From: Oscillospiraceae bacterium
GTDB taxonomy: Bacteria; Bacillota; Clostridia; Oscillospirales; Oscillospiraceae
Direction of reading: 5' to 3'
Length of the DNA stretch: 64,000 bases
Assembly (NCBI GenBank): GCA_017622995.1
Contig: JAGAQA010000029.1
Location: 1 to 64,000, forward strand
Shown: piece by piece, positions 6,616 through 20,637 of the stretch
Position numbering within the stretch: position 1 is the stretch's first letter
Layout: each line of letters begins with the position of its first letter
The notes under the pieces: model-generated
Databases searched by the model: none
The model's input: the letters and a program-made list of their open reading frames with translations, nothing else
What the model was told of the DNA's origin: nothing
Made by a program: the position numbers and the translations under genes

Positions 6616-7023
6616 CTATTCCGCCTGCCGGATCCCCACAATCCGGAAGAAGGGCACTTCCCTGCCGTCGGTGAGCACCAGGCCGCCTTCGTAGAGATCC
6701 AGCTTTTTTACATTCCCTTCTATTTCCTGAAAAGCGCCGCCTTCCTTTCGCCCGTCTTCCTGATATATGGTCAGAATCACCCTGGGCTGGCGGGACAGAT
6801 TCTCCGCAATGGCATTCAGCTCCCGATTCAGGGCTTCCTGGCTCTCCTCCGTGAGAAAGACCGGGCCCTGGGTCAGGCGGGCCGTCTCCTGAATCACCGC
6901 ATCGTAGCCCGTCAGGGCAGCAAAGGGTGCAAACTGGGCCGCCCGGTCCTCCACGCTCATTCTGGCCCGCTTTCCGGGCTGGGGCCAGGGCGTATTCAGA
7001 ATATCATCATACCGGTGGGTCAT
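6616..7023 (-). CDS. YolD-like family protein
   Basis: This 135-residue protein matches the YolD-like pattern, with the N-terminal RMSVEDRAAQFAPFAALTGYD and a C-terminal SH3-like stretch ending VPFFRIVGI. YolD proteins are encoded next to UvrX-type Y-family polymerases in Firmicutes, and here the gene follows the polymerase by 12 bases with an AGGAGG site. By co-occurrence it is thought to assist or regulate the error-prone polymerase; its biochemical role is not established. It should be induced with the polymerase from the LexA-boxed promoter. Confidence 0.88.
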   Translation of the reverse strand: MTHRYDDILNTPWPQPGKRARMSVEDRAAQFAPFAALTGYDAVIQETARLTQGPVFLTEESQEALNRELNAIAENLSRQPRVILTIYQEDGRKEGGAFQEIEGNVKKLDLYEGGLVLTDGREVPFFRIVGIRQAE

Positions 7024-7035
7024 CGTGTTTTCCTC

Positions 7036-8526
7036 CTATGCCTTGTGGCCGCCGATCTGGCCGTTGCGCTGCCGGGCGGTGGCGCCCTCTTCCAGGTTCA
7101 TCCCCCGGAAAATGGCGTTTTTTCCAAACCGTTCCTTAATTTTCAGCATGGCTTCCAGCCGCTGCTGCTCCCGCTCCAGCGCTTCCTGCCGGGCTTCTTT
7201 TTCTGACGGCTCGGAAAACAGATCCATCTGCTCCATACTTTCCCGCTCCCGGGCCGCGCTTTCCCGGCTGAAAAGCTCCGCCGACAGCGTCAGACGCCGC
7301 TGGAGCAGGTTCCGGTCCGCGATGCGGTCAAAAAGCTCCATAAACGCCGCTGTAATTAGCCTGGAAGAGGCGCATTTGCATTCCAGGTCGATGGTTCCAT
7401 GGGCGCTCTTGGGCACCTGGCGGCCATACCGGTCCGTATCCACCGCACCGGCATAGTCGGTTTTCTTCAGACTTTCCCGATCATAGCCCAGGGTCAGGGT
7501 CAGTTTCTTGGTAACAAGGCCCTTGGACACCAGATCCATGGCCATCTGGTCCGCCATTTCCCGCACCACCAGCCGGGCCTTTTCGAAGGAATAGGGCTCT
7601 GACAGCACCTGACCGGAGCTGACAGACCGGGAGCTGGGCCGGTAGGCCTTAATCTGGGCAATGGTGCAGGGCTCATAGCCCCAGGCGTGATCGATGAGCA
7701 GCTCCGCATTCACACCGAACAGCTGATAGAGGCTGTCGCAGCCGTAGGGGCCCGGCTGGAGAGAAAGCTGGGCAAGCTCCCCCATGGTATAAATGCCCTT
7801 ATGGGCCAGCTTTTTTGCGATTCCCGGGCCCACCCGCCAGAAATCCGTCAGGGGTTTGTGAGCCCACAGCTCCCGGCGATAGGTCATTTCGTCCAGGTAC
7901 GCCACCCGCACTCCATCCTTGTCCGGGGGAATGTGCTTGGCCACAATGTCCATTGCCACCTTGCAAAGGTACAGGTTGGTCCCCACCCCTGCCGTGGCCG
8001 TGATGCCTGTGGAATTGATGATTTCCAGAATCAGCTTTTTTGCCAGGCCCCTGGCATCCATGTTGTAGAGCTTCAGGTAGGCGGTGGCATCGATAAACAC
8101 CTCATCAATGGAATAGACATGAATGTCCTCCGGCGCCACATACTTGAGATAAATCTGATAGATGTAGCTGCTGTACTCCATATAGTGGGCCATTCTGGGC
8201 GGGGCCACGATGTAATCCAGCTTCTTTTCCGGGTGGCGTTTCAGCTCCACATCGTCACAGGAGCTGCCTGTAAAGGTTTTTCCCGGCGCCCGCTGCTGCC
8301 GCAGGGCGTTGACCTCACCCACCCGCTGAACCACTTCAAAGAGTCTGGCCCGGCCGGAAATGCCGTAAGCCTTCAGGGAAGGCGTCACCGCCAGGCAGAT
8401 GGTTTTTTCCGTCCGGCTGGCGTCCGCCACCACCAGATTGGTGGTCAGCGGGTCCAGTTCCCGCTCCACGCACTCCACGGAAGCGTAAAAGGATTTGAGA
8501 TCAATGGCAATATATTGCCTGTCCAT
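7036..8526 (-). CDS. Y-family DNA polymerase (UvrX/ImpB-like)
   Basis: The protein has 496 residues. DLKSFYASVE near the N-terminus and YSIDEVFID carry the carboxylates that bind catalytic metals in Y-family polymerases. The central part has the helix-hairpin-helix thumb (WRVGPGIAKKLAHKGI), and a little-finger region follows. It would insert nucleotides opposite damaged bases at the cost of mutations. The start at 8526 gives the typical MDRQYIAIDLKSF terminus. The promoter upstream contains a perfect GAAC-N4-GTTC LexA box between the -35 and -10 boxes, so this is an SOS gene. The YolD gene follows in the same operon. Confidence 0.93.
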   Translation of the reverse strand: MDRQYIAIDLKSFYASVECVERELDPLTTNLVVADASRTEKTICLAVTPSLKAYGISGRARLFEVVQRVGEVNALRQQRAPGKTFTGSSCDDVELKRHPEKKLDYIVAPPRMAHYMEYSSYIYQIYLKYVAPEDIHVYSIDEVFIDATAYLKLYNMDARGLAKKLILEIINSTGITATAGVGTNLYLCKVAMDIVAKHIPPDKDGVRVAYLDEMTYRRELWAHKPLTDFWRVGPGIAKKLAHKGIYTMGELAQLSLQPGPYGCDSLYQLFGVNAELLIDHAWGYEPCTIAQIKAYRPSSRSVSSGQVLSEPYSFEKARLVVREMADQMAMDLVSKGLVTKKLTLTLGYDRESLKKTDYAGAVDTDRYGRQVPKSAHGTIDLECKCASSRLITAAFMELFDRIADRNLLQRRLTLSAELFSRESAARERESMEQMDLFSEPSEKEARQEALEREQQRLEAMLKIKERFGKNAIFRGMNLEEGATARQRNGQIGGHKA

Positions 8527-8565
8527 AGCCGGCAGCACCTCCTTTTCGAATGGTTTTCTTTCATT

Positions 8566-8595
8566 ATTATAGAACATTTGTTCCTGTTTTGTCAA
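8566..8595 (-). promoter_or_regulatory. SOS promoter with LexA box inside the spacer
   Basis: On the minus strand TTGACA (8590-8595) and TATAAT (8566-8571) are both perfect and 18 bases apart. GAAC-ATTT-GTTC (plus-strand reading, 8572-8583) fills the spacer next to the -10 box and matches the Firmicute LexA consensus core. LexA bound there would block RNA polymerase until DNA damage. Confidence 0.85.
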
Positions 8596-8597
8596 GG

Positions 8598-8630
8598 AAA
8601 AACCGCCCGGGCTCCGAAGCGCCCGGGCGG
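8598..8630 (-). terminator. Rho-independent terminator of the opp operon
   Basis: A 10-bp GC-rich stem (CCGCCCGGGC/GCCCGGGCGG, 8603-8612 and 8621-8630) is followed on the minus strand by five U residues. It lies 33 bases after the binding-protein stop codon and directly abuts the SOS promoter. Confidence 0.9.
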
Positions 8631-8662: not shown

Positions 8663-10468
8663 TTATTTCAGCAGATCCTCGTTGATGTTCCAGCAGACGT
8701 AGTAGGTACCGATCTGGCCCACAACCTTGAACTCGGTGGGATACTCGGTCTTCAGAGTGGAAATCTCGTTGGTGGGAACGTCGTCGATCAGCAGCCAGTC
8801 ACCGTTCTTGAAGTTGGTGAGCATGTTGTTGGCATCGTCAGACAGGTAGAACTTGATCTCCTTCATGGTGACGTTCTCGGCATCCCAGTAGTTGTCGTTC
8901 TTGGTCAGGGTGATGACGGAGTTGTGATCCCAGCCGGTCATCTTGTAAGCGCCGTTGGAAATGAAGGTGGAAGCGTCGGTGCACCAGCCCTCGTCGGCAA
9001 CCACATCCTCACGGACAGGGAAGTAGGAGGGGAAGGCCAGCAGCTCATTCCAGAAGGCAATGGAGTTGTTCAGAGTGACAACCAGGGTCTTGTCATCGGT
9101 GGCTTCCACAGCCAGGTCGTTGGGGTAGCCCTTAACAACTTCCAGCATATAGCCGTAGTCAGCGCCCAGCTCCTCGGAGGCAGCACGCTTCCAGGCAAAC
9201 TCGAAGTCCTTGGCGGTGACAGGCTGGCCGTCGGACCATTTCAGGCCGTCCCGCAGGGTGTAGGTGTAGGTCACGGTGCCGTCTTCGTTCTCCACGCCCT
9301 CGGGAAGCTCGGTGGCGCAGTCAGCAACGATGACCAGCTTGCCGCTCTCGTCCTGATCCCACTTGGCCAGGCCGGCGAACAGGTGGCTGTCCAGGGTAGC
9401 GCCGTCAACAGCGGAGTTCAGAGCGGGATCGATGACGTCGGGCTCGGAGGCGATGCAGACGCTGATGGAATCGGTGTTGCCGCCCACGTCAGCCTTATAG
9501 AAGTACTTGTAGCCCAGAGGGTTGCTGAAGAAGCCGTTGACGGAGTCATCCAGCATGAACAGGTCGGTGTAGAAGTACAGGGGCACCAGGCAGCCGGTAT
9601 CCATCAGCATATCCTCGGCCACGTGCATCATGGCGTAACGGTTCTCCACGTCGGTGCACTTCTTGATTTCGCCAATCAGCACATCGTAGGTCTCGGCCCA
9701 GGTGCCGTTCTCCACCTTGATATCCAGGCCGTAGGGGGTCAGGTCCAGGTTGTAGATGGCCAGATCAGCCTTGGCGCCCTTGCCGAACTGCACATCGTTG
9801 TTGCCGGAGGCAGTGGTCCACATATCCAGGAAGGTGCTGGGATCGTTGTAGTCAGCCAGCCAGCCGTTACGGGCAACGGAGAAGTCGCCGGCCTTACGGG
9901 TGTTCAGGAAGGTGTTCCACTCCTGGTTCTCCAGGTTCATGGTGATGCCCACGGAAGCCAGAGTAGCGGCCAGGTACTCACCGATGGCCTTGTGGCCCTC
10001 AGAGGTGTTGTACAGATAGGTCAGAGTGGGGAAGTTGGTGAACTGACCAGTGGTCTCGTCGTAGTCGTAGTACTTGCTCAGGATTTCGATGGCCTGGGAG
10101 AAGTTGTCCTCGTAGGCATCCTCGGAGACATCGTAGTAGCCGACAAAACCGTCGTTGTGGCCGGCGTTCTTGTAGAACTCGGAGCCGTCAGCATCGGTCA
10201 TACCCATGGCAACGAAGGAGGAAGCGGGAACCTGACCGCCCTGAGCGATCTCGTTGACGATGTAGTTCCGATCGTACAGCAGGCTGATGGCCTTACGGAT
10301 TTCCGCCTCAGCCAGCGCCTTTTCTTCAGCGGTCATTTCGGCGGGTGCTTCGGTAGCAGCCTCGGTAGCAGCGGCAGTGGTGGCAGCGGGAGCGTCCGTC
10401 TTGGCGCCGCAGGCAACCATGCCCAGAACCATAACAACAGCCAGAAGCAGTGCAATGAGTTTCTTCAT
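8663..10468 (-). CDS. oppA: OppA/DppA-type peptide-binding lipoprotein with circularly permuted halves
   Basis: This 601-residue protein begins with a lipoprotein signal (residues 1-20, Cys20) and an Ala/Thr/Glu linker. What follows is the normal C-terminal half of a family 5 binding protein: RKAISLLYDRNYI at 58-70, FPTLTYLYN at 146-154, WLADYNDP at 203-210 and NPLGYKYFYK at 316-325. Only then comes the normal N-terminal half: SISVCIASEPDVIDPALN at 334-351, TYTLRDGLKWSDGQPVTAKD at 402-421 and YYVCWNINEDLLK, where it stops. In standard family members NINED leads directly into the RKAISLL helix. The reading frame is intact and the gene closes the oppBCDF operon, so it probably feeds that importer. 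Assembly error from collapsed tandem copies is the main alternative. Confidence 0.85.
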   Translation of the reverse strand: MKKLIALLLAVVMVLGMVACGAKTDAPAATTAAATEAATEAPAEMTAEEKALAEAEIRKAISLLYDRNYIVNEIAQGGQVPASSFVAMGMTDADGSEFYKNAGHNDGFVGYYDVSEDAYEDNFSQAIEILSKYYDYDETTGQFTNFPTLTYLYNTSEGHKAIGEYLAATLASVGITMNLENQEWNTFLNTRKAGDFSVARNGWLADYNDPSTFLDMWTTASGNNDVQFGKGAKADLAIYNLDLTPYGLDIKVENGTWAETYDVLIGEIKKCTDVENRYAMMHVAEDMLMDTGCLVPLYFYTDLFMLDDSVNGFFSNPLGYKYFYKADVGGNTDSISVCIASEPDVIDPALNSAVDGATLDSHLFAGLAKWDQDESGKLVIVADCATELPEGVENEDGTVTYTYTLRDGLKWSDGQPVTAKDFEFAWKRAASEELGADYGYMLEVVKGYPNDLAVEATDDKTLVVTLNNSIAFWNELLAFPSYFPVREDVVADEGWCTDASTFISNGAYKMTGWDHNSVITLTKNDNYWDAENVTMKEIKFYLSDDANNMLTNFKNGDWLLIDDVPTNEISTLKTEYPTEFKVVGQIGTYYVCWNINEDLLK

Positions 10469-10540: not shown

Positions 10541-10584
10541 ATTCCGAAGAATTTCGGAATGCAAAAAGCCCATGGGCTTTTTGC
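10541..10584 (-). terminator. Two tandem hairpins between oppF and oppA
   Basis: ATTCCGAA (10541-10548) pairs with TTCGGAAT (10553-10560). It is followed at once by a 24-base perfect palindrome (10561-10584) whose arms end in A- and T-runs. They lie between the oppF stop and the oppA start, and may attenuate readthrough or protect one part of the mRNA so that binding protein and pump are made in different amounts. Confidence 0.55.
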
Positions 10585-10590
10585 GCTATT

Positions 10591-11565
10591 TTACCCGATC
10601 TCGTTCAGCCGATGGCAGGCCACATAATGGCCGGACTGGACTTCCTTGAACTCCGGCATGGAGGCGGCGCACTCCTCGCTTGCATAGGGGCAACGGGTGC
10701 GGAAGGGGCAGCCGGAGGGGGCATTCAGGGGGCTGGGAATGTCGCCGGACAGCACAATGCGCTTGTTCTCTCTGGCGGCCTTGGGGTCGGGGAGCGGAAC
10801 GGCGGACATCAGGCACTTGGTATAGGGGTGCAGGGGATGATCATAGATCTCCTTGGCATCTGCCAGCTCCACCATTTTACCAAGATACATGACGGCGATT
10901 CTGTCGGAAATGTGACGCACAACCAGAAGATCGTGGGCAATGAACAGATAAGTAAGGCCCATCTGATCCTGCAGCTCATCAAACATATTGATGACCTGTG
11001 CCTGGATGGAAACGTCCAGAGCGGAAACAGGCTCGTCACAGACAACAAACTGGGGGTTCATGGCCATGGCCCGGGCAATACCGATGCGCTGGCGCTGACC
11101 GCCGGAGAACTCATGGGCATACCGGTTGGCGTGCTCGGAGTTGAGACCCACCTTGCTCATCAGTTCCAGCACCCGTTCTTCCCGCTCCTTCTTGTTGGCG
11201 TACATTTTGTGCACGTCCAGGGGCTCGGCAATGATGTCGGCCACGGTCATACGGGGATTCAGGGAGGAGTAGGGATCCTGGAACACCATGGCGCTCTTCT
11301 TGCGGTACTCCTGAATGTCCTTCTTGGATTCGATTTTTTTGCCGTCAAAGAAAATCTCACCGGCAGTGGGCTTATACAGGTGCAGCAGGGTGCGGCCCAC
11401 GGTGGTCTTGCCGCAGCCGGATTCGCCTACAAGGCCCAGGGTCTCGCCCCGGCGGATGGAGAAGGAGACATCGTCCACAGCCTTCAGAGGCTTGGTGGTA
11501 AAGGCGCCGGTGGCAATATTGAAATACTCTTTCAGATGCTTGACTTCTACAAGGGTATCAGCCAT
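10591..11565 (-). CDS. oppF: Oligopeptide ABC transporter ATPase OppF
   Basis: This 324-residue ATPase has Walker A GESGCGKTT, the signature FSGGQRQRIGIARAM, Walker B VVCDEPVSALD and a C-terminal Cys-rich oligopeptide extension (CPFRTRCPYASEEC). The four cysteines in such extensions bind an iron-sulfur cluster in characterised Opp/Dpp ATPases. It overlaps oppD by eight bases and forms a heterodimer with it on the inner face of the OppBC channel. It is preceded by oppB, oppC and oppD on the same strand and followed by a hairpin pair and the binding-protein gene. Confidence 0.93.
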   Translation of the reverse strand: MADTLVEVKHLKEYFNIATGAFTTKPLKAVDDVSFSIRRGETLGLVGESGCGKTTVGRTLLHLYKPTAGEIFFDGKKIESKKDIQEYRKKSAMVFQDPYSSLNPRMTVADIIAEPLDVHKMYANKKEREERVLELMSKVGLNSEHANRYAHEFSGGQRQRIGIARAMAMNPQFVVCDEPVSALDVSIQAQVINMFDELQDQMGLTYLFIAHDLLVVRHISDRIAVMYLGKMVELADAKEIYDHPLHPYTKCLMSAVPLPDPKAARENKRIVLSGDIPSPLNAPSGCPFRTRCPYASEECAASMPEFKEVQSGHYVACHRLNEIG

Positions 11566-12553
11566 TGGGTTCGCCCTCCTTTTCCATTTCTTCCTTCACG
11601 TTCATCCAGCAGGCAGCCTGGTGGAAGTCGTTGATCTGCAGGCGTTCTGCCCGCTGGCGCAGACAGATCTTCATGGCGTTGTCGCAGCGGGGCGCGAAGG
11701 GACAGCCCGCGGGCATATTCAGCAGATCAATGGGGGTGCCGGAAATGGGATGCAGCTTCTCGCCGTCATTTCCGATGGTGGGAATGGAGCGCATCAGGCC
11801 CTTGGTATACTCATGCTTGGGATTGTAGAAGATTTCATCGGCGGTGCCCTGCTCGCAGATGGAGCCGGCGTACATAACGATGACCTCGTCGCACATCTGG
11901 GCAACCACGCCCAGGTCATGGGTAATCATGATGATGGCCATGCCCAGCTCCTTCTGGAGAGACTGCATCAGCTCCAGGATCTGGGCCTGGATGGTTACGT
12001 CCAGAGCGGTGGTAGGCTCGTCGGCGATCAGAATGTCCGGCTCGCAGGCCAGGGCCATGGCGATCATGACTCTCTGGCGCATACCGCCGGAGAACTCGAA
12101 GGGATACTGCTTCATCCGCTTCTCGGGTTCGTTGACGTTGACCAGCCGCAGCATTTCCACTGCCCGGTCCCAAGCCTGCTGCTTGTTTCGGTTTGTATGC
12201 AGCAGGATGGCTTCCATCAGCTGATGGCCGATGGTATAGGTGGGGTTCAGGGAGGTCATGGGGTCCTGGAAGATGATGGAAATTTTGTTGCCCCGGACAT
12301 TCTTCATTTCCTTTTCGGAAATACCCACCAGCTCCTGGCCGTCCACCTTGATGGAGCCGGAGACAATCTTGCCGGTCTTTTCCAGAATCTGCATAATGGA
12401 GTAAGCGGTAACGGACTTGCCGGAGCCGGACTCCCCCACAATGCCCAGAACCTTGCCCCGGTCCAGATTAAAGGAGACGCCGTTGACGGCCTTGACTTCA
12501 CCCACGGGGGTGAAGAAAGAGGTATGCAAATCGTTTACTTCAAGCAATGCCAT
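11558..12553 (-). CDS. oppD: Oligopeptide ABC transporter ATPase OppD
   Basis: This 331-residue ATPase has Walker A GESGSGKSV, signature FSGGMRQRVMIAMAL, Walker B ILIADEPTTALD and the C-terminal oligopeptide motif CPFAPRCDNAMKIC. The GxMRQR variant of the signature and the TTALDVTIQAQ continuation are typical of OppD rather than OppF. It follows oppC by 20 bases with a good ribosome site and overlaps oppF. It supplies ATP hydrolysis for peptide import with OppF. Confidence 0.93.
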   Translation of the reverse strand: MALLEVNDLHTSFFTPVGEVKAVNGVSFNLDRGKVLGIVGESGSGKSVTAYSIMQILEKTGKIVSGSIKVDGQELVGISEKEMKNVRGNKISIIFQDPMTSLNPTYTIGHQLMEAILLHTNRNKQQAWDRAVEMLRLVNVNEPEKRMKQYPFEFSGGMRQRVMIAMALACEPDILIADEPTTALDVTIQAQILELMQSLQKELGMAIIMITHDLGVVAQMCDEVIVMYAGSICEQGTADEIFYNPKHEYTKGLMRSIPTIGNDGEKLHPISGTPIDLLNMPAGCPFAPRCDNAMKICLRQRAERLQINDFHQAACWMNVKEEMEKEGEPNG

Positions 12554-12573: not shown

Positions 12574-13638
12574 TCAGCGCTTCAGCTTGGGGTCAAAGGC
12601 ATCCCGCAGGCCGTCGCCAAACAGATTCAGAGAAAGAACGATCAGGGAAATGGCAATGGCAGGAATAACCAAACGGTAGGGATAGGTGCTGACACCGTTG
12701 AGGGCGTCGGAGGCCAGGCTGCCCAGAGAAGGCATGGGGGCGTTGACACCCAGGCCCAGGAAGGACAGATAGCTCTCGGTAAAGATGGCGCTGGGAATCT
12801 GCAGAGCGGTGGAGATGATGACCACGCTGATGCAGTTGGGGAGCAAGTGCTTGCGGATGATCCAGCTGCCCTTGGCGCCGGTAGCCCGGGCTGCCAGAAC
12901 ATACTCCTGCTCCCGGAGGCTGAGGATCTGGCCCCGGATCAGCCGGGACATGGACACCCAGTACAGCAGGGCAAACACCAAGAACAGAGAGATGATGTTG
13001 GAGCCCAGCTTCGCCAGGACGGTGCCGTCAATGGCGGGTCCCAGGACCTGCTTCATGACGGTGGCCAGCAGAATCACCATCAGCATATCGGGCAGCGAAT
13101 AGATGATATCCACAATCCGCATGATGATGAGGTCCACTTTTCCGCCGCAGTAACCGGCTATGGAGCCCACCGTCATACCGATGATCAGCACAATGATACT
13201 GGCAAAGAAGCCAACGGCCAGGGAAATCCGGGTGCCGTAGACCACACGGATAAAGTAGTCCCGTCCGGAGGAATCGGTGCCGAAGACATGGGGGAAGACC
13301 TTCTCCCCATTCTCAATTTTCTTAAGCTCGGTCTTGCCGTATTCAAAGGGCGCCAGATTGTTGTAGGACTTGTCCACGGGCTTGCCGGGACGGATGCCCA
13401 GCATGGCATCGTACTTGTAGGGCCAGAAGAAGGGAATGACAATAGATGCCAGGGTAATCAGAATGATGATAATCAGGCTGGCAAAGGCAATGCGGTTTTT
13501 GACCAGGCGCTTCATACCGTCCTTAAAGAAGGTGGTGGAGGGGCGCATCTGAACCATGTATTCCTTTTCCGCATCGGTTGCGGGGATAAAGTCGTCCACA
13601 TTCACATGGAGACTGAAGGGGTTCTTTTTCATATCCAT
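12574..13638 (-). CDS. oppC: Oligopeptide ABC transporter permease OppC
   Basis: The 354-residue permease has a soluble N-terminal stretch of about 45 residues, then a hydrophobic segment near 50-72, a periplasm-facing loop and the binding-protein-dependent transport core. The core carries the EAA loop EYVLAARATGAKGSWIIRKH, which contacts the ATPases. The FGTDSSGRDYFIRVVYG motif is characteristic of OppC/DppC. It is encoded 18 bases after oppB and before oppD. With OppB it forms the membrane channel. Confidence 0.93.
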   Translation of the reverse strand: MDMKKNPFSLHVNVDDFIPATDAEKEYMVQMRPSTTFFKDGMKRLVKNRIAFASLIIIILITLASIVIPFFWPYKYDAMLGIRPGKPVDKSYNNLAPFEYGKTELKKIENGEKVFPHVFGTDSSGRDYFIRVVYGTRISLAVGFFASIIVLIIGMTVGSIAGYCGGKVDLIIMRIVDIIYSLPDMLMVILLATVMKQVLGPAIDGTVLAKLGSNIISLFLVFALLYWVSMSRLIRGQILSLREQEYVLAARATGAKGSWIIRKHLLPNCISVVIISTALQIPSAIFTESYLSFLGLGVNAPMPSLGSLASDALNGVSTYPYRLVIPAIAISLIVLSLNLFGDGLRDAFDPKLKR

Positions 13639-13656: not shown

Positions 13657-14586
13657 TTATTCCAGATTAATCCGGGGATCCACCACGGTGTAGAGAATGT
13701 CGCTGACCAGATTCATGACCACAATCAGGATGGCCAGCACGATGGTGGTGCCCATGATGAGGGGGTAGTCACGGCCGGTAATGGAGCTGACAAAGGCGCG
13801 GCCAATGCCGGGCACGGCGAAGATCTGTTCCACCACCAGAGAGCCGGTGACAATATAGGCAAGCATGGGTCCAAAGTAGGTAATAACAGGGATCAGGGAG
13901 TTCTTCAGTGCATGGCCGAAGATAATCTTCACAGGGGCAACGCCCTTGGCCTTGGCGGTACGGATATAGTCCTGGCCCAGCACGTCCAGCATGGAGGAAC
14001 GGGTCAGACGGGTAATGTAGGCCATGGGATACAGCGCCAGGGTGATAATGGGCATAACAAGGCCCTTGACCGTTTCGCCGTTGGCAGGCACCAAGCCCAA
14101 TTTCACGGAGAATATCAGCAGCAGCAATGTACCCATAATAAAGGAGGGCATGGACACAAACGCGGTGGTAATGACCATGATGATCTTATCCAGAACGGAA
14201 TTCCGGGTCAGGGCGGCCACACAGCCCAGCACGATTCCGCAGCCCAGGGCGGCAAAAGCGGCAATAAGACCCAGCTTAATGGAGGTCTTCATGCCGTCAG
14301 CGATCACATCGATGACCATACGGCCCCGAAGCTTGATGGACGGACCGAAGTCAAACTTCGTCACAATGTCTTTGAGATAGGTAATATACTGCTCCATCAG
14401 GGGCTTATCCAGGCCATACTTGACCTCCAATGCCTTCTGGGCAGCTTCAGAAACGGCCTTTTCACTGAGGAACGGGCCGCCGGGGACAGCGCGCATCACA
14501 AAGAAGGTCACGGTAATGACAACCCAGACCGTCAGCAGCGCCAGGAGAATACGCTTGAGAATATACAAAAGCGTTTTGGTGTTCAT
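13657..14586 (-). CDS. oppB: Oligopeptide ABC transporter permease OppB
   Basis: The 309-residue permease begins with the family-typical MNTKTLLYILKRILLALLTV and has about six membrane segments. The EAA loop reads QDYIRTAKAKGVAPVKIIFG, and the C-terminus ends in VVDPRINLE as in most OppB/DppB proteins. It is the first gene of oppBCDF-oppA. A near-consensus promoter lies about 63 bases upstream. The presence of both permeases and both ATPases supports a functional peptide importer even though the binding protein is rearranged. Confidence 0.93.
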   Translation of the reverse strand: MNTKTLLYILKRILLALLTVWVVITVTFFVMRAVPGGPFLSEKAVSEAAQKALEVKYGLDKPLMEQYITYLKDIVTKFDFGPSIKLRGRMVIDVIADGMKTSIKLGLIAAFAALGCGIVLGCVAALTRNSVLDKIIMVITTAFVSMPSFIMGTLLLLIFSVKLGLVPANGETVKGLVMPIITLALYPMAYITRLTRSSMLDVLGQDYIRTAKAKGVAPVKIIFGHALKNSLIPVITYFGPMLAYIVTGSLVVEQIFAVPGIGRAFVSSITGRDYPLIMGTTIVLAILIVVMNLVSDILYTVVDPRINLE

Positions 14587-15458: not shown

Positions 15459-16604
15459 TTACGCCTCCTCTTCCGCGGCTTGCTCAGCGGCCAGCTGGGC
15501 ACCGGCGGCGCTCTTGGCCTTCCGCTTCTTGGCCTCGTACAGCACCAGGGCTACCGTGATAACCGCGTAGGAAACGAACACACGGAAGTATTCGCCGATC
15601 ATGGAGTCACCGGTGATGGCAGCACCGGTTTTGGGTGCCACAATAAACATGGTGTGGAACAGAATGACACCCAGGAACACATTGCCAATGCTGGCCTTGT
15701 CCACGCTGGCGCCGCCAACCAGAAGGGCCGCGATACAGAACATACCGATCTGGGAATGTGCCGTGTAGGTGGGGAAATTGCCCACGTTTTGCAGGTAGAT
15801 GATCATGCCGAAGCCCGCGAACACCGTGCTCATCACCATGGCGATGACGCGGGTACGCTCCACATTGATGCCGGCATCTCTGGCCACTTCCATATCCTGG
15901 CCCACAGCCCGCATATCCTGGCCCAGCTTGGTCTTGCGGAACCAGACAATGAACAGGCAGGCAAGGGCAATGAGAATCAGGGTCAGCACCGGAATCTTCA
16001 CGCCGCCCACGGTGAAGGACAGCAGGTTATCCAGGCTCTGCCGCATCTGCAGCAGGCTCACGGTGTTGCGGATGCCGTAGCCTCTGGGCAGCTTGATGGA
16101 AGCGTGCTTGATGGGGATGATGGAGCCCATCATATACAGCACCACCAGCTGATAGATGCCGGTCATAAAGAAAGCGATCATGTAGCTGGTGATCATCTCC
16201 CGGCCCTTGGCCTTGTTCAGGATCTTACCGATGAACACACCCAGGCCTACGGAGAAGGGAATGGAAAGGATCGCCGCCAGGATAAGACCGGGAATGCCCC
16301 AGATCTGCCAGTCCGCCACAAAAATCAGGGCGATCTGTCCGGCCATGGCTCCCAGGGTCATGCCGAAGTTCAGGCCCATACCGGCCATAATAGGGATGAG
16401 AAGGCTCAGAATCAGGAACGCGTTTCTGCCCAGACGGGTCACAATTTCGTTGAGCAGGTATCCGGCAGAAAAGCCGGAGGCGGGGATGCAGTAGGCGCAG
16501 ATCAGAATGAACATAATGGGCACGGAATTGTTGCCCAGGAAGGTCAGAATCTTCTGGCCCACGGTCTTCTGACCCAGACGGGGGGTATTGTTGTTGTTTG
16601 CCAT
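15459..16604 (-). CDS. ABC transporter permease (BPD_transp_2 family)
   Basis: The 381-residue protein has about nine membrane segments and the core pattern GMGLNFGMTLGAMAGQIALIF and AVGQDMEVARDAGINVERTR that marks the RbsC/BmpA-type permease family used for sugars and nucleosides. The GIN-x-R/KTR motif is the coupling loop toward the ATPase. It starts two bases after the other permease of the pair, as in transporters with heterodimeric channels. The C-terminal tail is long and Ala/Glu/Lys-rich. Confidence 0.9.
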   Translation of the reverse strand: MANNNNTPRLGQKTVGQKILTFLGNNSVPIMFILICAYCIPASGFSAGYLLNEIVTRLGRNAFLILSLLIPIMAGMGLNFGMTLGAMAGQIALIFVADWQIWGIPGLILAAILSIPFSVGLGVFIGKILNKAKGREMITSYMIAFFMTGIYQLVVLYMMGSIIPIKHASIKLPRGYGIRNTVSLLQMRQSLDNLLSFTVGGVKIPVLTLILIALACLFIVWFRKTKLGQDMRAVGQDMEVARDAGINVERTRVIAMVMSTVFAGFGMIIYLQNVGNFPTYTAHSQIGMFCIAALLVGGASVDKASIGNVFLGVILFHTMFIVAPKTGAAITGDSMIGEYFRVFVSYAVITVALVLYEAKKRKAKSAAGAQLAAEQAAEEEA

Positions 16605-16606
16605 TT

Positions 16607-17677
16607 TTATTTGCCTCCTTCCGTCTTCCGGGTCAAGGCATAGACGATCATACCGTTGGACACGATGACACGGATAACCTCACTCATATCCATATGGATC
16701 ATGCTGTTCATAACCGTGGGAGTCATGGTCACCAGGCCCTGATACAGGAAAGTACCGATAATCACGTTGGTAATGGATGCCTTGTTGACGGAAGCACCGC
16801 CGATGAGGATGGCCGCCACAGCGGGCAGCGCCATATTAAAGGGCGCCATGTACAGCTGCACAAAGCCAAAGCCCTGCTCGTAAATCAGAATACCAACGGC
16901 ACCCAGCCAGGTGGACAGGATGACGGAGAGCATACGGGTTTTGTCAATGTTGATGCCGGCAGCCTTGGCAAAGGCGGGGTTGGAGCCCACGGCGGTCATA
17001 GCGGTGCCGGTCTTGGTGTGCAGGAAAGCCCACACCAGGAAAGCCAGGAAAGCAAAGAAAAGCAGGCTTCCGGTGGGAATCACCAGATTGATACCGAAGC
17101 GGTTCAGGTCAATGGTCAGGAAGTTTGCCAGAGCCTTGTCGTAGAAGCCCTCCAGGGAGATGGTGGTACGCAGGCCCTTACCGGCAAAGCCCCAAACCAT
17201 GGTGGGGCTCTTGTAGGGCAGCAGCATCCACATCATGCACATAAAGGACACGGCGGAGAAGCCCACATAGGTGGCAACCATCATTTCGCCGCCCTTGATT
17301 CTGTTCAGGAGCCAGCCGTAGGCAGCGCCCAAAAGGATGGCAAAGGGGGTAGCCAGGAGCATGGCCATGAAGAAGCTCATCGGACCGGTGAAGCCCAGCT
17401 CGATGGACAGGGTGGCGCCCAGCAGGCCGGAGATAATGGCCAGGGGCAGACCCATGTTCAGGCCGCAGCCGGAGTGGATCATGGGCACCATGGCCAGAAC
17501 CAGAACCGCATTCCAGCTGAAACGGTTGATGACATTGGTAAACTGGGTCCACAGGTCAACTCCGGCAAAGGGTGCCAGAACGAACATGGACATCAAAAAG
17601 CCCGTGATAATCAGTCGGGGGATGCCATAGCTATCCACGGCACGGCGAAGCATACCCTTTTCATTTTTCTTTTCCAT
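16607..17677 (-). CDS. ABC transporter permease (BPD_transp_2 family)
   Basis: The 356-residue partner permease shows the same fold: GCGLNMGLPLAIISGLLGATL in the second quarter, and AVGSNPAFAKAAGINIDKTR as coupling loop. About nine to ten membrane segments are predicted by eye. It follows the ATPase by 12 bases and precedes the other permease by two. The two proteins align well with one another, so they probably arose by duplication and form a heterodimer. Confidence 0.9.
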   Translation of the reverse strand: MEKKNEKGMLRRAVDSYGIPRLIITGFLMSMFVLAPFAGVDLWTQFTNVINRFSWNAVLVLAMVPMIHSGCGLNMGLPLAIISGLLGATLSIELGFTGPMSFFMAMLLATPFAILLGAAYGWLLNRIKGGEMMVATYVGFSAVSFMCMMWMLLPYKSPTMVWGFAGKGLRTTISLEGFYDKALANFLTIDLNRFGINLVIPTGSLLFFAFLAFLVWAFLHTKTGTAMTAVGSNPAFAKAAGINIDKTRMLSVILSTWLGAVGILIYEQGFGFVQLYMAPFNMALPAVAAILIGGASVNKASITNVIIGTFLYQGLVTMTPTVMNSMIHMDMSEVIRVIVSNGMIVYALTRKTEGGK

Positions 17678-17689
17678 GTTTCGCCCTCC

Positions 17690-19279
17690 TTACTTTACCT
17701 GACTGACCATCAGCGCGCCGAAGGCCTCGCTGGATTCCGTAGCAGGCAGGATACCGGCAATCCGTCCGCCGGAGACAATGGCTATGCGGTCGCAGGTGCT
17801 GCGCAGCTCCTCCAGCTCGGAGGAAATCATCACCACGGTAACACCGCTTTCCCGGTTGAATTTCTTCAGTGCTTCCAGCACCAGAGCTTTGGCGCCTACG
17901 TCAATGCCCCGGGTCGGCTCGGAGACGAAGAGGAACTTGGGCTCCAGGGCAAAGGCCTTGGCCAGGCAAACCTTCTGCTGGTTGCCGCCGGAAAGCTCCT
18001 TTGCCTTCTGCTTGGAGCTGGTGCACTTGATTTTCAGTTCCTCAATATACCGGTCGGTGACCTCACGGATGGCTTTTTCATCACGCCACTTGACAAGACC
18101 GCCCAGGAGATTTTTCAGGAACTTGTTCTGGATCTGCATGGCGGGGAATGCCACGTTCCACTCCAGGGTCTCGTCCAGAAGCAGGCCCACACCCCGCCGG
18201 TCTTCGGACACGAAGGCCAGCTGCTCGTCCAGGCAGTTCCGGGGATTGTTCAGGGGGATGGGCTTGCCGTCAAACTCCACGGTGCCGCCGGCCTCATAAA
18301 GACCCATCACACCATTGGGAATGCCCAGCTTGCCCTGGCCGGCCAGGCCGCCGATGCCCAGGATTTCGCCTTCCTTCACATCCAGGTTCACATTGCGGAC
18401 AATTTCACCGGGCATATCCACCCAAAGCTTGCGGATGGACATGATGGTCTTTGCGCCGGAATGGTCCCGCACATCCTGCTTGACGGACACATCCACCTTA
18501 CGGCCCACCATGGCCTTGGTGATGCGTTCCACATCGGTTTCGGAGGCGGGCATATCCTCAACCACATGGCCGTCCCGCATGATGACCACCTTATCGCAGA
18601 CAGACAGAATCTCGTGAAGACGGTGGGTGATAAAGATCACGGAAATACCCTGCCTGGACATACCCCGAATGGAGTCCAGCAGTGCTTCCGCCTCCTTTTC
18701 CGTCAGAACGGCGGTGGGCTCGTCCAGGATCAGAAGCTTCAGCTGGTCCTTGCTCAGCTCTCTTGCGATTTCGGTAAACTGCTTATGACCGACAGGCATA
18801 TCGCTGATGCGCATATCCGCGTCAATCTGCACGCCCATCTTGTCGATGGCAGCAGCGGCGCACTTATCCATTTCCTTATAGTCCAGGGTGTTCAGCCGCT
18901 GGCCGAACACTTCGGACAGAACATTCTTCTTTTGAGGCTCACGATTGAGCAGAATATTTTCCGTGGCAGTAAAGCCCGGAATCAGGGAGAATTCCTGGTG
19001 CACCATGCCGATACCGGCTTCCAGTGCATCGAAGGGGGTGGAGAAATTGACCTTTTCTCCATTGAGCAGCACATCGCCGCTATAACCACCGGTTTCCCGA
19101 ATCACATCCATACCGAAGAGGATCTTCATCAGAGTAGACTTACCGGCGCCATTTTCACCGACCAGGCCCAGGACCTCGCCGGCTTCCAGAGTAAAATTGA
19201 TGTCTTCCAGAACCTGATTTCCGAAGAAATCCTTCTTGATGTTTCTCATCTCCAACAAAGGAGCAGTATTTTTTTCCAT
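17690..19279 (-). CDS. Tandem ABC ATPase (RbsA/MglA-like)
   Basis: The 529-residue protein holds two ABC domains. The first has Walker A GENGAGKST, signature near PVGHKQFTEIAREL and Walker B LLILDEPTAVLT. The second has a degenerate Walker A (GLAGQGKLG), a good signature ELSGGNQQKVCLAKAF and a Walker B in which the usual Asp is Ser (FLFVSEPTRGIDVG). Degenerate second domains are common in this family, but the Ser substitution is an added oddity. It energises the two permeases encoded downstream. A hairpin with a short U-run separates it from the binding-protein gene. Confidence 0.92.
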   Translation of the reverse strand: MEKNTAPLLEMRNIKKDFFGNQVLEDINFTLEAGEVLGLVGENGAGKSTLMKILFGMDVIRETGGYSGDVLLNGEKVNFSTPFDALEAGIGMVHQEFSLIPGFTATENILLNREPQKKNVLSEVFGQRLNTLDYKEMDKCAAAAIDKMGVQIDADMRISDMPVGHKQFTEIARELSKDQLKLLILDEPTAVLTEKEAEALLDSIRGMSRQGISVIFITHRLHEILSVCDKVVIMRDGHVVEDMPASETDVERITKAMVGRKVDVSVKQDVRDHSGAKTIMSIRKLWVDMPGEIVRNVNLDVKEGEILGIGGLAGQGKLGIPNGVMGLYEAGGTVEFDGKPIPLNNPRNCLDEQLAFVSEDRRGVGLLLDETLEWNVAFPAMQIQNKFLKNLLGGLVKWRDEKAIREVTDRYIEELKIKCTSSKQKAKELSGGNQQKVCLAKAFALEPKFLFVSEPTRGIDVGAKALVLEALKKFNRESGVTVVMISSELEELRSTCDRIAIVSGGRIAGILPATESSEAFGALMVSQVK

Positions 19280-19301
19280 AAGCAGTTCCTTACCTGTAAA
19301 A

Positions 19302-19328
19302 GCAGGGGAGAGAAACCCTCTCCCCTGC
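19302..19328 (-). terminator. Attenuator hairpin after the DUF3798 gene
   Basis: An 11-bp perfect stem (GCAGGGGAGAG with CTCTCCCCTGC) is followed on the minus strand by a short U-run. Its place between binding protein and ATPase would give more binding protein than pump. Confidence 0.7.
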
Positions 19329-19359
19329 CTGTATTATTTTGATCGTATTCGGGAAGTCC

Positions 19360-20637
19360 TTACTTCAGAGTGAAGTACTTCTCGGGAACCTCCACCTGGG
19401 TGGCGCCCATGTAGTGGCCGGGATTGCCCATGATATAGGTATCCTGGTAGATCAGGAACACATTGTCCAGCTTAACACCGGTGTCGGCATTGGTGTAGTT
19501 GGAGCCGTTCCACTCGGCCTTGGGGGAGAATACCTGGTAAGCCTTGGCAATATCATCGATGTCGCACAGCTCGCTCTCGCCCTGGATAACGTTCTTGACG
19601 TGCTCAGCCAGACCGGCAGAGACGGTGTAGCCGTAGGAGTAAGCCCAGGTGCCGAAGCGGTCAGCGCCGCCCTTTTCGTTGATGGCAGCCTCAACCTTGG
19701 CCAGGATCTTCTCAAAGTCGCCGGCCTCTTCGGTCAGATCCAGGCCCAGAGCGCCGGGATAGCCCATCAGAGGAGAGGGCAGGTCAGCCTCGATGAAGTA
19801 TCCGCCGTACTCCAGCAGCTGCTTCAGCAGGGGCTCGGTGTGGGCATCGTTGGTGCAGAAGTAAGCAGCCTTTTCGCCGTACATCTGAACCCACTCGGGA
19901 ACCTTCTCCAGGATGTAAGCCTGGGCGCCGGGGATGCCCACGTCGGTGGTGGGATCGGGAGCGGTCTCCAGAACAAACTTCATGCCGAACTCCTCGCAGG
20001 CGGCCTTCATAATTGCCACACGACGGGACATGGTCTCATAGGACATGTGCCGGGGGAAGGAGATGTGCACAAAGGTGTCACAGCCCAGCTCGTGAGCGGT
20101 ACGGATGATCAGGTAGCCACGGGCAACGAAGTCGTTGTTGGTGGTCAGGTCAGCAGCGGAACCGATCTCGGGCAGGTCCTCATGGGACTCACCGGCAACA
20201 CAGATGATGTCGGGGCGGCGCTCCTTGATCTGACGGAAAGCCTCGGTGGTGCCGGGCACAGCCTGGTTGACAACGATGGCCTTCATCTCGGGATCATCGG
20301 ACATATTGACAATGGTCTGAATGGTGGTCTCCAGCTCTTCGGTGAAGTTGTCGGGGTAGATCGCCAGGGAGACGTTCTCTTCGCCGTACATAGCCTGGAA
20401 GGCCTCAGCACCGCGGCGGTCGTCCTCGGACTGAGAAACGGAACCGGTCACGATACCGATGTGGAAGGGGTTGCCGTCCGCATCCAGCAGGGCGTTGCCG
20501 TTATCAGCGGCAGGAGCCTCAGTGGCAGTGGTGTCAGCGGCGGGAGCTGCGGTGGCGGCGGGGGTGTTGCTGCTGCCGCAGGCTACCAGGGCGAAAGCCA
20601 TAGCCAGGACCAGCAGGACGCTCATCAGCTTTTTCAT
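19360..20637 (-). CDS. DUF3798 substrate-binding lipoprotein
   Basis: The 425-residue protein has a lipoprotein signal (Cys20 in LVACGSS), an Ala/Thr/Glu/Pro linker and a two-lobed periplasmic-binding fold beginning FHIGIVTGSVSQSEDDRRGAE. The SQSEDD-R-GAE pattern and the later HISFPRHMSYETMSRR block are what I recognise as DUF3798. It is the first gene of a five-gene importer operon with a tandem ATPase and two RbsC-like permeases, hence a surface-anchored ligand receptor. The ligand is not known to me. A near-perfect promoter lies about 60 bases upstream. Confidence 0.88.
   Translation of the reverse strand: MKKLMSVLLVLAMAFALVACGSSNTPAATAAPAADTTATEAPAADNGNALLDADGNPFHIGIVTGSVSQSEDDRRGAEAFQAMYGEENVSLAIYPDNFTEELETTIQTIVNMSDDPEMKAIVVNQAVPGTTEAFRQIKERRPDIICVAGESHEDLPEIGSAADLTTNNDFVARGYLIIRTAHELGCDTFVHISFPRHMSYETMSRRVAIMKAACEEFGMKFVLETAPDPTTDVGIPGAQAYILEKVPEWVQMYGEKAAYFCTNDAHTEPLLKQLLEYGGYFIEADLPSPLMGYPGALGLDLTEEAGDFEKILAKVEAAINEKGGADRFGTWAYSYGYTVSAGLAEHVKNVIQGESELCDIDDIAKAYQVFSPKAEWNGSNYTNADTGVKLDNVFLIYQDTYIMGNPGHYMGATQVEVPEKYFTLK

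Follow-up and report, generated by a model that had tools for sequence, protein, structure and literature searches.

Circular permutation of an ABC-transporter binding protein has a published precedent in Treponema pallidum. As described in the accessible portion of its report, TpMglB-2 (Tp0684) is a cluster B glucose-binding protein that is permuted and lipid-anchored and has Gram-positive gut relatives ('cluster Bc'), and its authors propose that anchoring may have driven the permutation (PMC4990184). The same partial text gives it the cluster B sugar-binding fold, a cut different from those found here, both ends in the N lobe, and one topology (PMC4990184). Within open-access text we found no permuted OppA-type (cluster C) protein, in keeping with the initial annotation of our locus, which knew of none; a permuted binding protein of cluster B is published (PMC4990184), and TpMglB-2 of Treponema is the nearest published case.

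Here we describe a gene in the window, by which we mean the whole 64,000-nucleotide stretch of an Oscillospiraceae bacterium contig that was analysed. Its product is, like TpMglB-2 as that partial text presents it, a natural circularly permuted, lipid-anchored ABC binding protein; unlike TpMglB-2, its family belongs to cluster C, has ends that map to lobe 2, shows three cut points and probably had several origins. All sequence and A-half fold matches shown for the window protein are to OppA/DppA-type family 5 proteins, and TpMglB-2 was compared by description. Ordinary relatives, namely Bacillus subtilis OppA/DppE (PDB 8are, 8ay0) and Salmonella OppA of cluster C, share with it the SBP_bac_5 profile (PF00496), the fold of the A half and the peptide-amine Asp, and oppBCDF partners and a lipid anchor are also present in the Gram-positive OppA/DppE case. 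Compared with OppA/DppE, the window protein has its chain opened between lobe 1 and domain III and its native ends joined. The classic natural permutants are saposin/swaposin and the DNA methyltransferases, in the latter of which permutation is recurrent. They are unrelated to the window family and involve no membrane anchor, and the likeness lies in permutation by duplication, which for the window family would be the route; for DNA methyltransferases the available text reports intermediates of this process (PMC3320104).

The permuted gene and its operon

The permuted OppA-type lipoprotein gene occupies 8663..10468 on the minus strand (ORF call, Pfam and phmmer) and comprises 601 codons plus a stop, its frame open throughout. 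It begins with a lipoprotein signal peptide (residues 1–20; 10409..10468, minus strand, read from the sequence) whose lipobox ends at Cys20, a residue invariant in all 27 aligned proteins of the same cut type (T1, defined below); the ORF list and the lipobox thus bear out the 601-codon frame with its own signal peptide described in the initial annotation. An Ala/Thr/Glu-rich linker (residues 21–44; 10337..10408, minus strand, also read from the sequence) leads into the B half (residues 45–326; 9491..10336, minus strand, by alignment), which contains domain III and the native C-terminal strands of domain I. The A half, the native N-terminal part equivalent to OppA residues 1–274, follows at residues 327–600 (8669..9490, minus strand).

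Family 5 membership is given by PF00496, which matches the protein at E 8.4e-66 in two stretches of swapped order, profile positions 9–211 (its first part) falling on residues 391–598. A phmmer search against solved DppE placed query residues 398–597 on chain residues 79–285, 55–224 on 291–444 and 257–322 on 448–514. Together these confirm the swapped half order behind the lipoprotein signal that had first been read from the letters, and the residue positions given at that time agree with conserved positions R58, P317, L318, G319, F323, V337, S341 to D344, Y589 and Y590. The canonical domain order I-II-I-III-I is absent: the B half precedes the A half, and we therefore file the protein as a permuted variant and not as an ordinary cluster C member. 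As in a circular permutant, no part is missing or repeated, the old ends are joined and new ones have been opened elsewhere in the chain. A short linker, which in many relatives resembles GYKYF-xx-TTV-x-G-xx-SISVC, bridges the old ends; the new ones lie directly beyond the lobe-connecting strand. The reading of the gene as a genuine, conserved circular permutant is supported.

Upstream on the same strand lie genes for an OppF-type ATPase (10591..11565), an OppD-type ATPase (11558..12553), an OppC-type permease (12574..13638) and an OppB-type permease (13657..14586), all on the minus strand; the best models are of Opp type, with scores below the curated cut-offs, and the previously noted location with an oppBCDF operon holds. 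The same oppB-C-D-F arrangement, upstream and on the same strand, was found at 24 of 28 T1 and 5 of 6 T2 loci flanked on one side by 4.5 kb or more of sequence. Judged from sequence and a structural model, the window gene very probably encodes a functional peptide-binding protein, anchored in the membrane and serving an OppBCDF importer, with a circularly permuted chain.

Between oppF and the permuted oppA, a repeat search detected a 12-bp perfect palindrome (10561..10584) that is a possible attenuator, and just past the oppA stop a G+C-rich 10-bp stem followed by a T run (8603..8630, minus strand; repeat search and sequence) is a probable terminator. Downstream of the permuted oppA, the minus strand encodes a Y-family DNA polymerase (7036–8595), whose matches to DNA polymerase IV models score below the cut-offs, and after it a small protein that by eye is YolD-like (6616–7023). 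A second transporter operon, of sugar/nucleoside type and also recognized by eye, lies at 15459–20637 on the minus strand and comprises a binding lipoprotein, a double-cassette ATPase and two permeases.

Chain orders among relatives

A genome search for the same half order, put forward initially as a check, recovered it in assemblies of many species at about 58–83% identity. We distinguish three types of permuted order: T1 is cut as in the window; T2 is cut about 90 residues later, giving the order late B, A, early B; and T3 is cut late in domain III, so that A is preceded by no more of B than its last 70 or so residues. To set piece order, we aligned each protein with normal-order forms of the window protein and distant members. 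After identical and short rows (summed score < 90 or coverage < 0.78) had been dropped, 203 different family 5 proteins were gathered, 133 normal and 70 permuted (41 T1, 14 T2, 15 T3), shares that are not rates because similarity to a permuted query was the basis of selection. Examples of T1 are L038, L043, L067 and five records labelled Coriobacteriaceae (L056, L058–L061); of T2, L062–L066, L068, L120–L126 and L203; and of T3, L132, L137, L138, L157, L164, L192–L200 and L204.

From a scan that took one genome per species, we retained the best 80 of 307 relative-encoding loci, and among these 80, 36 were permuted (30 T1, 6 T2), all in uncultured or metagenome records. We also searched samples by taxonomic rank, which overlap, count the window's own genome and were each searched at their own threshold; here permuted means a match running well across the B-A junction, and the loci that were ordered agree with this. 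The order sample gave a match in 32 of 394 genomes, 14 of them permuted (3 T1, 7 T2, 4 T3), the family sample in 58 of 250, with 15 permuted (3 T1, 12 T3), and the class sample in 52 of 391, with 5 permuted; G580, in the class sample, has normal order, its match reaching only 29 residues beyond the junction. Within the genus (37 genomes including the window's own), six genomes have T1, two have the normal order and one has an A-half fragment, and the remaining genomes gave no close match among the matches listed. Normal-order homologues reach about 82% identity in a half, same-genus cases being L014 and L015. A phylum-wide profile search of 398 genomes at E 1e-90, a threshold too strict for remote permutants, added one, G1086.

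Permuted order also occurs in remote relatives. L202, in the single-contig genome G748, has T1 order with oppB-C-D-F upstream and is 34–38% identical to the T3 reference and 40% identical to the window protein; permutants of its type are kept in four species of its family at 71–73% identity, and normal-order L210 is 62–68% identical. L203 (G758) has T2-type order. L238 (3340–10499, minus strand; G1046) carries three complete T1-type genes in tandem plus a partial further copy at the edge of the stretch, and no ORF in its 10.5 kb matched the window's Opp permease and ATPase partners.

A quick tree of the 203 rows, in which long branches meet and deep placements are rough, contains 13 changes of order, some of which may be returns to normal order. 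T3 forms one clade (support 100), the L202 group forms one (99) inside the normals, and L203 and L238 stand apart. By parsimony on these sequences there would be at least five permuted lineages with normal-order ones between them, namely the window's close group, T3, L202, L203 and L238, a count of which we are unsure; permutation has probably occurred several separate times in the family. The permuted window family is real, conserved and probably recurrent. A textbook fold has seemingly been re-cut repeatedly in nature, at few sites and in intact operons, and the case carries a warning for annotation, where order-blind domain matches hide permutants.

Fold, cut sites and the membrane anchor

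AlphaFold, run without templates, modelled the window protein at pLDDT 84.1 and pTM 0.81, with residues 1–42 below pLDDT 50. Of the two structural checks proposed at the outset, prediction yielded a confident fold, and superposition on solved OppA succeeded for the A half only, because the aligners were sequential. A T2 model (pLDDT 54.4, from 6 sequences) was too poor to use. The Trp-x-x-Asp of domain III (W203, D206) is invariant in 27 of 27 T1 proteins, and D206 aligns with OppA 419; judged by conservation alone, the conserved peptide-amine Asp is present in the window protein. We take the OppA Asp aligned with D206 to bind the peptide amine. In AliD the equivalent Asp does so, according to the accessible text of PMC11192437. 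Nine pairs (seven T1, one T2, one T3) gave dN/dS of about 0.11 to 0.33, which indicates purifying selection. Folded shape and peptide site would stay unchanged by the permutation.

Domain III of OppA spans residues 270–486 in the part of PMC6305025 available. On OppA numbering the T1 cut falls at 276–284, the T2 cut somewhere in 319–360 and the T3 cut at 441–445, all three inside domain III; the placement of the window's cut near the domain I/III boundary, made initially from characterised structures, fits the alignment, the boundary lying at 269/270 in that source (PMC6305025). Pneumococcal AliC (PDB 8qlh) forms a domain-swapped dimer whose swap occurs at the inter-lobe loop alpha7-beta14, residues 290–294, as the accessible text has it (PMC11192437), and this loop would lie near the equivalent of the T1 cut; in contrast to the window protein, the AliC chain has normal order in that account and the exchange is between two molecules.

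Since the cuts are within domain III, the two new ends should sit on lobe 2 and take the lipid anchor with them, whereas the native anchor sits on lobe 1. An anchor leaving domain III (lobe 2) and not domain I (lobe 1) would alter how the protein hangs from the membrane and how it docks on OppB/OppC. In the Ami transporter, as far as the available text describes it, AmiC is wedged between the lobes, with one part touching only lobe 1, and AmiD touches lobe 2 (PMC11192437), contacts from which we infer that the side of the tether could matter. Any benefit would then come from the shift of the anchor. We tentatively suggest, as a possibility with the odds somewhat against it, that clostridial importers repeatedly permute their binding protein at three domain III loops and that this is selected since moving the tether from lobe 1 to lobe 2 changes docking or release at OppB/OppC. 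If true, chain topology in ABC importers would be a setting open to evolution, and the permuted sugar-binding TpMglB-2 would provide another case of adaptation to anchoring.

We give an even chance to an account in which the permutations are real and recurrent but neutral, tolerated at surface loops without any anchor-linked benefit. Natural permutants usually retain function, according to the accessible text of PMC3281007, and domain III takes up 217 of the 517 OppA residues, such that five lineages would be cut there by chance about 1 time in 75, before any tolerance of loops for cuts is considered. What speaks against neutrality is recurrence within one family, the position of every cut in the same lobe and the retention of permuted forms across species.

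Origins of the permuted order

Whether the scatter of permuted genes reflects repeated permutation was addressed with trees and approximately unbiased (AU) tests on the close group. The 75-row tree used was drawn from 115 rows and its bootstrap had not settled; L016, L070, L088 and L139 were left out of the alignment as too short. A single clade of all T1 was rejected (p-AU 0.0014), as was one of all T1 and T2 (p 0.00012), and the T1 and T2 clade without L067 was marginally rejected (p 0.042); clades of the 15 genus T1 (p 0.062) and of T2 (p 0.51) were not. A single origin of T1 is hence rejected for the close group, though not within the genus.

These results weigh on an alternative that we consider unlikely, in which a few ancient permutations were scattered by horizontal transfer, exchange of halves and returns to normal order, without repeated permutation. 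It would account for the likeness of the T1 and T2 junctions, where many proteins of both types join the old ends by a linker like TTV-x-G-x-x-D-S-I (that of L067 is shorter and different), for T1 order in the Coriobacteriaceae-labelled records, for the branching of permuted groups near the base of the close group, at forks that are weak, and for the disagreement of the A-half and B-half trees, and several one-clade tests gave no rejection. Against it stand the two rejected clades and the remote position of L202, L203, L238 and T3, with normal-order lineages between. In addition, the normals near the genus T1 keep an unbroken lobe linker (ILPADS-LTG-EAE) like that of distant normals, whereas in most T1 a few of its residues are missing at the cut, which argues mildly against a simple return from T1.

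The trees of the separate halves are weakly supported, with 12 and 17 of 71 inner branches starred, and the starred branches force only 1 or 2 label changes. In the B-half tree the row nearest to the window protein is the normal L086. In the whole tree the T1 protein L040 (6001–7818) branches as sister to the normals of the genus (100/98). The rows closest to its A half are T1, and its B half is about equally near T1 L009 and the genus normals, a pattern that hints at exchange between permuted and normal forms. Given the placements of L040 and the window protein, exchange between genes is possible. L067, a T1 protein, groups with normal L111/L117 in the 203-row tree, and the trees of both halves put L111 nearest to it, which suggests a separate permutation. 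At the L067/L111 junctions we found no DNA-level scar by eye. L067 and L111 are close enough for direct comparison, and such pairs make the anchoring suggestion for permuted binding proteins, raised for TpMglB-2, testable.

It is highly improbable that the window gene is a non-functional relic of a decayed tandem array. One T3 relative, L139 (minus strand; G132), does contain an in-frame TAA and is either broken or affected by a sequencing error, but the window gene has 601 open codons, low dN/dS, a lipobox, an operon and a confident fold. Scarcely credible is an assembly artefact, a collapsed tandem pair or chimeric contig: the window and most relatives do come from fragmented assemblies, yet the order shared across species' assemblies, whose contig names suggest different projects and assemblers, makes this very unlikely together with purifying selection and the confident fold, and a collapsed pair or a swap between flanking repeats is all but excluded by these relatives, by the single copy in the window's own genome (its 21 other matches being mostly to the signal peptide and otherwise remote), by the equivalent permutant in single-contig G748, and by longest exact direct repeats of 11 bases around the locus, where the repeat search listed none able to explain a short-read swap.

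As to the route, a tandem duplication in frame, followed by fusion and loss of the outer parts, would give rise to each permutation. Only two permuted genes were flagged for possible remnants of a duplication next to them: L056, where the piece is a remote paralogue, and L137, past whose stop the translation contains no family 5 sequence. Among the listed frames we noticed no fused double-length intermediate. The longest frame noticed with a family match, 1177 codons in G825, was considered as one and proved to be two separate normal genes with several stops between. At this locus, L201 (2589–6119, minus strand), the two genes are normal family 5 members arranged in tandem; they share a frame and are separated by 64 codons. 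A fusion would have to start from a tandem of this sort.
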